A DNA stretch of 64,000 nucleotides from Gammaproteobacteria bacterium (lineage in GTDB: Bacteria > Pseudomonadota > Gammaproteobacteria > HK1): NCBI GenBank assembly GCA_021773635.1, contig JAJFJV010000019.1, forward strand, positions 1 through 64,000, written 5' to 3'. The translations under genes and the position numbers were made by a program. This document shows, piece after piece, positions 13,271 to 43,457 of this stretch (position 1 is the first letter of the stretch; each line of letters opens with the position of its first letter). The notes beneath the pieces are model-generated. The model ran no database searches. It was given only the letters and a program-made list of their open reading frames with translations, and was not told the DNA's origin.

Positions 13271-14059
13271 TCAGACAAACCTCCTTGTACGCCGGAGCCT
13301 CATGCCCGCCAAACCAAGGGCCATTAACGCGAAGGTAACAGGTTCCGGAATTGGCGTGTGGTGGTCACTGGCACTGCCAACCATCCCAACCAGAGGATCA
13401 CCGGTAGTGTTATTGGGACCCTGTCTTATAAAGAGGTCAACCGGGGGCCCAACCAGCCTGTATGCATTTGGTCCAAAGCATCCGCTGCCAATAGGGGGCA
13501 GGCAAAAAATCGTTGCTTCGAGCCTGAAAGCATCCCTGTTATAGAAAGTCATGCCAGCGGTATCTATCTCAAAAAAGACGTCGAAGAAGCTGTCTCCCGA
13601 GACAAAGCTGGAGGGATCTCCACTTCCAAAACCTGGATCGCCCGGGTTTTGAACAACATTGGTTATTTGACCAAGGGATGGTCCCTCTTGAACGGGTGCT
13701 CCCGCCGGAACTGGATGTTGCGGATGGTCTCCACCAAAACCATCATTGCGATCGCCAACTCTTACAGTCACCGGACCAACATTTACGCTCGCACCCACCA
13801 AATCAAGACTGACAATCTCTGTATCGATAGTGGTGCCAACCTGAGCGTCCCGATGCACGATCTGAGCGGCGCTGCTCATTAAATCAATTTTTTCCGTAAA
13901 TCCACCCGGAAAAAAAGGATCAAAAATGGTGAGCGTAAACGCCCCCACTGAATTTGGTATGACATCATCACCGGCAACTATTGGAGAGGCCGGGACCGAA
14001 GTGAAACTCAAGGCGAACAATCCACCCAATACCAGCCTCATAAACGTCTGCTTAATCAT
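13271..14059 (-). CDS. PEP-CTERM sorted extracellular protein, function unknown
   Basis: A 262-residue secreted protein. The start at 14059 (MIKQTFMRLVLGGLFALS) gives a classical signal peptide ending near VPAS; an upstream in-frame ATG at 14107 would bury it. The C terminus is IPEPVTFALMALGLAGMRLR followed by basic residues: the Pro-Glu-Pro motif, transmembrane helix and Arg cluster recognised by exosortase (EpsH/XrtA-type) in polysaccharide-producing bacteria. The body is low in Cys and rich in Gly, Pro, Val and Asp, with no recognisable domain. No exosortase is present in this window. It has its own upstream region with a sigma-54-like promoter and two repeated boxes (see 14173-14412). Confidence 0.88.
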   Translation of the reverse strand: MIKQTFMRLVLGGLFALSFTSVPASPIVAGDDVIPNSVGAFTLTIFDPFFPGGFTEKIDLMSSAAQIVHRDAQVGTTIDTEIVSLDLVGASVNVGPVTVRVGDRNDGFGGDHPQHPVPAGAPVQEGPSLGQITNVVQNPGDPGFGSGDPSSFVSGDSFFDVFFEIDTAGMTFYNRDAFRLEATIFCLPPIGSGCFGPNAYRLVGPPVDLFIRQGPNNTTGDPLVGMVGSASDHHTPIPEPVTFALMALGLAGMRLRRTRRFV

Positions 14060-14172
14060 TTCCCCCTCCCCCGGATCGCAGCCAGTTAATACCTTCCTGC
14101 GCTCCATATCTCGTGGTTACCTCGGCATTAAACGGCCAGAAAAGTAGAAAAATCCCTTTCGAGTAATATGCA

Positions 14173-14188
14173 TGCAAATAGCACGCCG
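14173..14188 (-). promoter_or_regulatory. probable sigma-54 (-24/-12) promoter of the PEP-CTERM gene 13271-14059
   Basis: Read on the minus strand: CGGCGTGCTATTTGCA. The invariant GG and GC are exactly 10 bases apart and the -12 half TTGCA is perfect; the -24 half deviates at three positions from TGGCACG. It sits about 114 bp upstream of the start codon. Support comes from a near-perfect equivalent in front of the second PEP-CTERM gene. Confidence 0.55.
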
Positions 14189-14249
14189 GGGAAAATAATC
14201 CACACCAATCATAAGGTTATGTTTCTACTATGGGGAGGCAAGAAAAAAT

Positions 14250-14267
14250 TGTAAAAAATCCTGACGA
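14250..14267 (-). promoter_or_regulatory. PEP-CTERM upstream box, gene 1, proximal copy
   Basis: Plus-strand sequence TGTAAAAAATCCTGACGA. One of four copies found upstream of the two PEP-CTERM genes; positions 2-5 (GTAA) and 12-16 (CTGAC) are identical in all four. It lies about 62 bp upstream of the sigma-54-like promoter, a distance suited to an enhancer-binding protein. Confidence 0.6.
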
Positions 14268-14394
14268 TTTTTTGACCAAATCTCGCTCCTCACCCCGGCT
14301 TTTGACACCTGACACCTCGTGTTTCTCCACTATTCTTTATATAGATCAATGGCTTTTTGCCATCCTTCTGGCTCATGAAGTAGCGAGAGCAATG

Positions 14395-14412
14395 TGTAAG
14401 ATTTTCTGACAG
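14395..14412 (-). promoter_or_regulatory. PEP-CTERM upstream box, gene 1, distal copy
   Basis: Plus-strand sequence TGTAAGATTTTCTGACAG, in the same orientation as the proximal copy and 145 bp from it. Confidence 0.55.
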
Positions 14413-41761: not shown

Positions 41762-42448
41762 CTAGCGTTTGCGGCGGCGGGCACCAAAGCCCATGCCGGC
41801 AAGGCCGAGACCCAGCAGCGCAAGGGTGGCCGGTTCAGGAACACCGCTCTCCTGCTCAATAGAGACTTGGAGGGTATAGGTATCTCCAGTATCCGGGGTA
41901 TTCCCAGTCCATTCAGCTACAGGAGTCACCCCAAAAATGGGGATAGCGCTAACGGCCGTGGAAGAGAACTCGGCAACACCAACCACGTAGGTGCCGGCCG
42001 TGGCGAAGTCGAAATCAAGGAAGGAATCCCTACCCCCAGCAGCCTCACTTCCAGCCGCCCCCTTACTGTTAGAATCGTCATCATTGGAAAACAAAACGAC
42101 ACCAGCCGAATCCCAGATCGCAATCTGGGTATCCATGTCCCCGGTACCTATATCCTCCCAACCAAAGTCGATATCAAAGATACCGCGGGCGCCATCAAAG
42201 GCCACGGTGAAGGAGTAGTAATCGAAGGTGCCATCACCGGTGCCATTGATGGTCACATGGGGAATGGTGGCGGAATCCAGGATATTGACATCGGCACCAA
42301 GTGAGAAGGAGCCATCAATATTCTGTGCCGTCGCCAGGGTGTTATTGGGCTCGGACTCGACGAGAACCGATGCACCTGCCAGCCCCGCATAACACAGACC
42401 ACCCGCAAGGGTCAGGGCCGTAAGACTTAGAATTCGTTTTGTTGCCAT
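41762..42448 (-). CDS. PEP-CTERM sorted extracellular protein (pre-peptidase-like domain)
   Basis: A 228-residue secreted protein. Start 42448 (MATKRILSLTALTLAGGLCYA) has GGAG nine bases upstream and a clear signal peptide. The mature part (VESEPNNTLATAQNIDGSFSLGADV, FDYYSFTV, DTQIAIWDSAGVVLFSNDDD, DSFLDFDFATAGTYVVGV) follows the bacterial pre-peptidase C-terminal / DVUA0089-like beta sandwich with an Asp-rich, probably calcium-binding loop. The C terminus VPEPATLALLGLGLAGMGFG plus ARRRKR is a textbook PEP-CTERM sorting signal. Own sigma-54 promoter and boxes upstream. Confidence 0.93.
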   Translation of the reverse strand: MATKRILSLTALTLAGGLCYAGLAGASVLVESEPNNTLATAQNIDGSFSLGADVNILDSATIPHVTINGTGDGTFDYYSFTVAFDGARGIFDIDFGWEDIGTGDMDTQIAIWDSAGVVLFSNDDDSNSKGAAGSEAAGGRDSFLDFDFATAGTYVVGVAEFSSTAVSAIPIFGVTPVAEWTGNTPDTGDTYTLQVSIEQESGVPEPATLALLGLGLAGMGFGARRRKR

Positions 42449-42495
42449 GCTCTGCGCTCCAAAAATGGATTGTTTCATGCTTCACGGAAGTCTAA

Positions 42496-42511
42496 TGCAA
42501 GCCGCGTGCCA
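42496..42511 (-). promoter_or_regulatory. sigma-54 (-24/-12) promoter of the PEP-CTERM gene 41762-42448
   Basis: Minus strand TGGCACGCGGCTTGCA is a perfect match to TGGCACG-N4-TTGCA. The start codon lies 48 bp downstream, leaving a normal leader with a good ribosome site. Confidence 0.88.
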
Positions 42512-42585
42512 TTGTTATCTTCACCTTATTATTCATGGCCTTAGGGCTTCTCACGCGCCACCCGACAGGCCGTCCATGAGGCAGA

Positions 42586-42603
42586 TGTAAAGTTTCCTGA
42601 CGA
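42586..42603 (-). promoter_or_regulatory. PEP-CTERM upstream box, gene 2, proximal copy
   Basis: Plus-strand TGTAAAGTTTCCTGACGA, 75 bp upstream of the sigma-54 promoter and in the same relative orientation as the boxes of gene 1. It agrees with the proximal copy of gene 1 at 15 of 18 positions. Confidence 0.65.
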
Positions 42604-42752
42604 CCTGCCCTCCCGTTCGGAGTTCACGGAACTCTATATAACAACCTGAGAACAAGAACATAAACCATTGTTTAATCTGGCATTGTCATCAACTACTTGA
42701 TCCAGGTTATCAGCAGCGGATGTCCGTCGCACAGATGCAAGCGTTTCAGAAG

Positions 42753-42770
42753 CGTAAAAAATTCTGACAA
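42753..42770 (-). promoter_or_regulatory. PEP-CTERM upstream box, gene 2, distal copy
   Basis: Plus-strand CGTAAAAAATTCTGACAA, 167 bp from the proximal copy. The rest of the gene-free 42449-42923 stretch holds only the sigma-54 promoter, the proximal box and one REP unit. Confidence 0.6.
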
Positions 42771-42841
42771 CATTGTGTGAAAGGCTGGATTCCCACAATC
42801 GTTGGAAGATTTGGCACTCTGGCATGAACCTCACCCACCTT

Positions 42842-42923: not shown

Positions 42924-43457
42924 CTACTCACCAAAACGGCTATCCATTTCATCGGGCGGAATATCACCCCACGCCTGCGGATATTTTCCTTCACTCACAT
43001 GGCAGTGAAAACTAGAGAATGGCCAGTCTGCTACCCGTATAACATGCCCATGCTTAACCGGGTTCCAATGCAGATAATCCAGATGTCTCCGCAGATCCCG
43101 CTGGTCACGAATAAGATGCTCCCAATACCGGGATTGCCAAATTCCGGGCTTTCTCCGTTGTGCGGGGATAAGCGGGTTAGCAGCATCTTGAAGGGCCTGG
43201 CTAGTCAAGCGTTTGATCATTGACCACCGCCGGGAATAGTCAGCATCGTCAGGTGGCAGTGTCCAGATGCAGTGCAAGTGGTCAGGGAGTAAGACCCATG
43301 CGTCGATTTGAAACGAATGTGATTGGCGAACGATGTTAATCGCGGCACGCAGCGCAGTACGGAGTGCCGGTGTGGTAAGGATTGGGCACCGTTTCGAGCT
43401 AACCAGTGTGAAGAAATAGGAACCGCCCGGGACACGGGCACGGCGATAGTTTGGCAT
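42924..43457 (-). CDS. REP-associated tyrosine transposase (RAYT)
   Basis: A 177-residue Y1 HUH transposase related to IS200/IS605. Key residues: MPNYRRARVPGGSYFFTLV N terminus typical of RAYTs, the metal-binding HUH box LLPDHLHCIWTLP, a GIWQSRYWEHLIRD segment, and catalytic Tyr in LRRHLDYLHWNPVKHG. Length and the surrounding REP units (42842-42862 on one side, 43507-43582 on the other) mark it as a domesticated REP-processing transposase rather than an active IS. Intact frame. It very likely spread the nine REP units seen across this window. Confidence 0.93.
   Translation of the reverse strand: MPNYRRARVPGGSYFFTLVSSKRCPILTTPALRTALRAAINIVRQSHSFQIDAWVLLPDHLHCIWTLPPDDADYSRRWSMIKRLTSQALQDAANPLIPAQRRKPGIWQSRYWEHLIRDQRDLRRHLDYLHWNPVKHGHVIRVADWPFSSFHCHVSEGKYPQAWGDIPPDEMDSRFGE

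Follow-up and report, generated by a model that had tools for sequence, protein, structure and literature searches.

PEP-CTERM proteins take part in floc formation. A switch for their genes was proposed in 2006, in which a 17-nt motif ending in TTTACA and sometimes repeated (motif 1) is separated by a spacer of 62.8 +/- 10.6 nt from a sigma-54 motif (motif 2); of 167 proteobacterial PEP-CTERM genes, 99 were preceded by the motif, and PrsR was proposed as its binder and activator (Haft et al., 2006; PMC1569441). The start of Aquincola pepA has been mapped behind a GG/GC element, and its transcription depends on rpoN1 (PMC9850573). Control by PrsK-PrsR and RpoN has been reported in Zoogloea (PMC9012009), and in D. 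vulgaris, DAP-chip with the regulator DVUA0057 enriched the five PEP-CTERM targets predicted for it (PMC3333781). Among the papers searched, which include few subscription papers, no title or abstract describes IHF sites, phasing, or regular double boxes for PEP-CTERM promoters.

Judged by their sequence, the promoters of the two PEP-CTERM genes in the window (the whole 64,000-nt stretch of DNA analysed here) belong to this known kind, a PEP-CTERM box together with a sigma-54 promoter (Table 1). The window holds four exact copies of GTAAN6CTGAC, starting at 14251, 14396, 42587, and 42754 and reading GTCAG-N6-TTAC in the orientation of the genes, whereas 0.14 are expected and none of 100 shuffles reached four. 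They form one pair before each of the two genes, 145 bp (gene 1) and 167 bp (gene 2) apart from start to start. Because one-mismatch boxes are not enriched in the window (9 found, 6.8 expected), only the exact box core stands out. The source genome (2.55 Mb in 46 contigs) contains 33 exact boxes, compared with 9 matches to the reversed pattern. TGGCACGCGGCTTGCA is the sole zero-mismatch match in the window to the sigma-54 pattern TGGCACGNNNNTTGCW (TGGCACG-N4-TTGCW), with 0.01 expected. The proximal site, CGTCAGGAAACTTTACA, has the TTTACA end of the 17-nt motif 1 in gene orientation, the sigma-54 GG/GC motif lies within 32-92 nt downstream of motif 1 before both genes (75 nt for gene 2 and 62 nt for gene 1), and both genes behind the promoters score above the TIGR02595 cut-off. 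The original prediction had described the exact -24/-12 element before gene 2, the four boxes sharing GTAA and CTGAC blocks, and spacings of 145, 167, and 75 bp; all of these were recovered, the last spacing being counted from the box core to -24. It was also right in reading the elements as a sigma-54 promoter with an activator box, an arrangement already published as the PEP-CTERM box (PMC1569441). It had not pointed out the likely IHF sites or the established name of the system.

Table 1. Elements of the two PEP-CTERM loci in the window.
Feature	Position	Strand	Remarks
PEP-CTERM gene 1	13271..14107	minus	ORF as listed; TIGR02595 21.3 bits, above cut-off
Gene 1 sigma-54 promoter CGGCGTGCTATTTGCA	14173..14188	minus	GG-N10-GC retained
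Gene 1 IHF-like site TAACCTTATGATT	14207..14219	minus	at -31; 8/9
Gene 1 proximal box	14251..14265	minus	62 bp from promoter
Gene 1 inter-box IHF-like site, weak	14344..14356	minus	7/9
Gene 1 distal box	14396..14410	minus	145 bp upstream of proximal box
PEP-CTERM gene 2	41762..42448	minus	start ATG 42448; C-terminus VPEPATLALLGLGLAGMGFGARRRKR; TIGR02595 34.3 bits, above cut-off
Gene 2 sigma-54 -24/-12 promoter TGGCACGCGGCTTGCA	42496..42511	minus	exact pattern match; 13/16 positions invariant in three species
Gene 2 IHF-like site TAAGGCCATGAAT	42531..42543	minus	-32 from promoter T; 7/9 consensus positions; 10/13 invariant in three species
Gene 2 proximal PEP-CTERM box GTCAGGAAACTTTAC	42587..42601	minus	75 bp from promoter; 17-mer 17/17 invariant in three species
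Gene 2 second IHF-like site AAACAATGGTTTA	42661..42673	minus, opposite orientation	between boxes; 8/9; same place in both sister species
Gene 2 distal PEP-CTERM box GTCAGAATTTTTTAC	42754..42768	minus	167 bp upstream of proximal box; 16/17 invariant and identical spacing in three species

The ORF of gene 2 as mechanically called begins at 42478, 5' of ATG 42448. Since ATG 42448 (MATKRIL) and its GGAGC ribosome site are conserved in both sister species and ATG 42478 is not, 42448, the start taken in the original prediction, is the better one, and the upstream ATG that opens the ORF is probably not the true start. The neighbour upstream of the distal box of gene 2 is a REP-associated tyrosine transposase gene (42924-43457, minus strand; NF047646, 186.6 bits), beside which REP-like palindromes (GTAGGGCGGACCATGTCCGCC-like repeats) lie near 42840, 43520, 43560, and 41690. 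The transposase gene is on the same strand as gene 2, which rules out that the distal box serves a divergent gene.

The regulatory proteins of the 2006 system are also encoded in the source genome. PrsR (729 bits), PrsK (838 bits), XrtA (the exosortase), EpsB, and two copies of PrsT score above curated cut-offs; PrsK, PrsR, XrtA, EpsB, chain-length and export proteins, and one PrsT lie within about 20 kb of contig C5, and the other PrsT lies on contig C9. Thus box, promoter, PEP-CTERM gene, and PrsR/PrsK/PrsT are all present, and every sequence feature given for that system fits (PMC1569441). The genome further encodes one RpoN and one IhfA above its cut-off. Aquincola pepA is likewise an RpoN-dependent PEP-CTERM promoter with a mapped start and an upstream enhancer, but its report, as far as accessible, describes no paired boxes, unlike the promoters here (PMC9850573). 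A box is also kept between epsB and prsT in the own genome (L196:11934; own C5:101933) and in a sister species (L169, genome G001), the sister copy with a -24/-12 element and the own copy without a clear one.

The boxes could instead be bound by another NtrC-type regulator of the genome, which encodes ten further strong NtrC-type matches. However, a single NtrC-type match passes the PrsR cut-off, and PrsR co-occurs with the box promoters: it is found in 16 of 18 genomes with box promoters or pairs (the two genomes without a PrsR hit are 73 and 77% complete) against 3 of 18 without box promoters, in a set of 36 genomes hand-picked from the match lists in which one no-box genome, G008, had one chance-like match. 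The DAP-chip enrichment by DVUA0057 in D. vulgaris also speaks against another regulator (PMC3333781), and we consider this alternative very improbable.

We then compared gene 2 with its orthologs in both sister species, which align without gaps from the distal box to the promoter. The distal and proximal boxes are invariant at 16/17 and 17/17 positions, respectively, while only 54 of 150 columns are invariant between the boxes and 10 of 40 in the 40 bp above the distal box, and the length of the inter-box region is unchanged. Boxes and spacing are thus kept while the flanks diverge, and the conservation check of the box pairs proposed with the original prediction came out in its favour. A block between the boxes, AAACAATnnnTTA, which matches the IHF consensus at 8/9 positions in the other orientation, lies at the same place in the three species.

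A contig scan for box promoters gave at least 116 stretches holding 117 sites. Among these listed matches, the gap from the box core to -24 clusters at 62-66, 74-76, and 84-86 bp, with means of 63.9, 74.6, and 84.9 bp. Phase windows of 61-67, 72-78, and 83-87 bp were set after this first sample and applied unchanged to an independent sample of the class, from which three genus members were left out and whose 77 other rows are the first places listed per genome. At 75 of the 77 listed sites, the distance between proximal box and -24 is about 64, 75, or 85 bp, and none falls at 67-72 or 78-81 bp. The proximal box is therefore helically phased, with a period of 11.06 bp (bootstrap 10.6-11.5) in this sample. 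Orthologous promoters with gaps of 64 and 75 bp (L045 and L227, L226) differ by about one whole turn. Behind the 108 in-phase sites among the matches listed, a regular expression found a PEP-CTERM tail in 40, 13 are cut off, and 55 have none; no PEP-CTERM gene was found behind any of the nine off-phase sites among the same matches, one of the nine being truncated by the end of the sequence. Such a spacing rule turns a consensus match into a geometry, predicting which insertions and deletions a promoter tolerates, and helps to separate real from chance sites. Loop lengths of the sigma-54 enhancers bound by LuxO at the Vibrio qrr genes similarly cluster about 11 bp apart, but in that account, as far as accessible, the LuxO sites are tandem and come without a far second box or an IHF-like site, unlike the boxes here (PMC4740811).

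When the 108 in-phase promoters among the matches listed were anchored on -24, one further conserved motif emerged between enhancer and promoter, TAAnnnnTTkATW, starting at -32 or -31. We take this fixed motif, YAANNNNTTGATW, to be a fit to the IHF consensus WATCAANNNNTTR read in reverse. Matches of at least 8/9 occur at -33 to -31 in 33 of the 108 promoters against 0-1 at six other offsets, and in none of the nine off-phase sites among the matches listed; the promoter site of gene 2 itself scores only 7/9. In 16 of 25 pairs, orthologs being counted apart, this motif also occurs in the inter-box region, compared with a null mean of 1.7 and a maximum of 7 in 300 nulls. Most of these inter-box sites follow the distal box by 15-16 or 26-28 nt and precede the proximal box by 79-81 or 89-92 nt; the other 9 of the 25 pairs have no inter-box match at 8/9 in the main orientation. 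nifH and Pu are IHF-assisted sigma-54 promoters. In such promoters, which have been described in general terms, a bend site likewise lies between enhancer and promoter, but the promoters here differ from them in having another likely bend site, placed between two enhancer boxes (PMC7962754).

The fixed motif might also be an upstream contact of RNA polymerase or a site for another nucleoid protein. Its constant distance from the promoter (-32/-31) is what a polymerase contact would give, and in Geobacter ihf mutants the PEP-CTERM gene GSU1943, whose promoter may be of another type, rises about 2.9-fold rather than falling, which speaks against a simple need for IHF (PMC7962754). Against this explanation, IhfA is encoded, the motif agrees with the IHF consensus, and it recurs well away from the promoter, in the inter-box region, where the gene 2 group carries it inverted. 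We regard a role without IHF as unlikely.

Paired boxes are the rule in the genus. Among the PEP-CTERM genes of the own genome above the cut-off, 10 of 11 have a box (at most one mismatch) and a -24/-12 element, and 9 of these 10 are two-boxed. With 23 loci taken from two sister species, 34 PEP-CTERM loci were compared; 26 gave a promoter (some of the other 8 end within the fetched flank), and a second box is present at 22 of the 26, leaving 4 single-boxed. Adding five further box-plus-promoter sites brings the paired promoters to 25 of 31. Outside the genus, a second box is found at 7 of 105 promoters among the matches listed, with 2 in the opposite-orientation control, and at 2 of 29 sites in the class sample scanned with a looser promoter pattern. 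Among 369 class genomes, 7 carry exact pairs about 101-160 bp apart, and among 398 phylum genomes, 4 carry them about 91-150 bp apart; some of these pairs lack a promoter and have probably arisen by chance. Within the family, fourteen other genomes yielded a single chance-like box-plus-promoter match, and a family search around G110 covered 2 genomes. The double-enhancer variant is thus regular in the genus and rare in samples from elsewhere, and the counts of 7/105 (among the matches listed) and 2/29 reject the notion that pairs are general for PEP-CTERM promoters. Pairs compensating for weak promoters were likewise rejected, as the looser promoter pattern elsewhere also gave few pairs (2/29).

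Because most promoters elsewhere are single-boxed, the second box is not essential. This pattern, together with the 4 single-boxed promoters among the 26 of the genus, would also suit a proximal box that suffices by itself and a distal box that is left over from a duplicated promoter and has little function. Against such a remnant, the distal box of gene 2 is invariant at 16/17 positions in three species while its surroundings are at 25-36%, the pair spacing is phased, and a -24/-12 element between the boxes is mostly absent (scores mostly 8-11, with 13.1 in L047 and 12.4 in L215). We hold the remnant to be quite unlikely. With mostly no promoter between the boxes, a distal box with a promoter of its own was also rejected.

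Within the genus, most paired boxes are 110-111, 119-124, 131-134, 145, or 167 bp apart. A period of 11.5 bp best fits 19 ortholog-group values (R 0.83; bootstrap 11.2-11.9), and none of 20000 uniform nulls fits as well. Deviations of 1-2 bp between sister species were averaged in these values, and two orthologs, at 145 and 124 bp, were entered separately. The pairs L231 and L208, at which no promoter was found, were included here and dropped in a further test, and the 182 and 100 bp pairs were omitted; with the latter two added, 2 of 20000 nulls fit as well. The 12 spacings that come from other genomes agree with the phase of the own genome (p=3e-5), and the orthologous spacings of 145 and 124 bp (L048, L234) are about whole turns apart. 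In other genera, four exact pairs with a promoter, at 131, 145, 110, and 145 bp, are also in phase (p=0.006), while four exact pairs lacking a promoter show no phasing. Enhancer spacing thus varies by whole helical turns, with the exceptions of the genus pair at 182 bp (L176), which is off phase, and of loosely defined second boxes in other taxa, which show no clear phasing (mean cos 0.29, p=0.14). The accessible text of the 2006 description is without IHF, looping, or phasing (its one "helical" is unrelated), whereas a phased spacer, IHF-like sites, and a regular second box are found here (PMC1569441).

The boxes, promoter, spacing steps, IHF-like motifs, conservation, and encoded PrsK, PrsR, RpoN, and IhfA are observed, and we infer from the DNA that they most likely represent a double-enhancer version of the sigma-54 promoter that PrsR activates in the PEP-CTERM/XrtA system, with PrsR and IHF occupancy and looping as its presumed working state. 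The kinase PrsK would phosphorylate PrsR, which would bind the promoter-proximal box, about 64, 75, or 85-86 bp from -24. IHF at -32 would bend the DNA such that PrsR, on a fixed helix face, reaches the closed RNA polymerase, which it would open with ATP. In the genus, a second putative PrsR box lies 110-167 bp farther upstream; another IHF-like bend, keeping to the same face of the helix, would link it in, and the PrsR added by this box would probably help hexamer assembly. Taken together, the geometry speaks for a single looped complex of IHF with PrsR at both boxes. For the switch proposed in 2006, distances that tend to shift in whole helix turns suggest how the loop folds, and the genus offers a natural experiment on activator assembly through IHF bends.

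The original prediction had proposed looping by two hexamers. Looping is supported because the paired spacing is real, conserved, and helically phased, while the number of hexamers does not follow, as one hexamer formed from two dimers fits equally. Two separate hexamers, one per box and each touching the promoter, would agree with the distances from distal box to promoter, which, summed by eye, also appear to run in steps of about 11 bp; the inter-box IHF-like site points instead to contact between the boxes, and we think two hexamers improbable. A split enhancer with two bends is possible, although we lean somewhat against it: two boxes separated by 110-167 bp, each with an IHF site behind it and all of them locked to helical faces, would let IHF build one PrsR hexamer from two distant dimers. 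If this were true, the spacings, with their period of about 11.5 bp, would be an evolutionary record of DNA twist in the cell.

Several further loci were noted. Two PEP-CTERM genes with slightly different tails (L040 and L232; ALFTLGATGVAALRRRR and ALLSLGASGIVALRRRR) gave no box promoter and possibly belong to another regulon. In the own genome, an exact pair 133 bp apart (L208; C9:57696-57843) is aimed at the 3' end of a PEP-CTERM gene, with no good promoter and no gene behind it. In genome G370, two exact boxes only 23 bp apart precede one promoter (L261). A paired-box promoter also lies before a gene for a giant haemagglutinin-like protein of at least 1811 aa, open at the fetched end (L193, own C14:200445-200537; L190 in a sister species); this gene adjoins a POTRA-type transporter gene, and its promoter is kept in a sister species.
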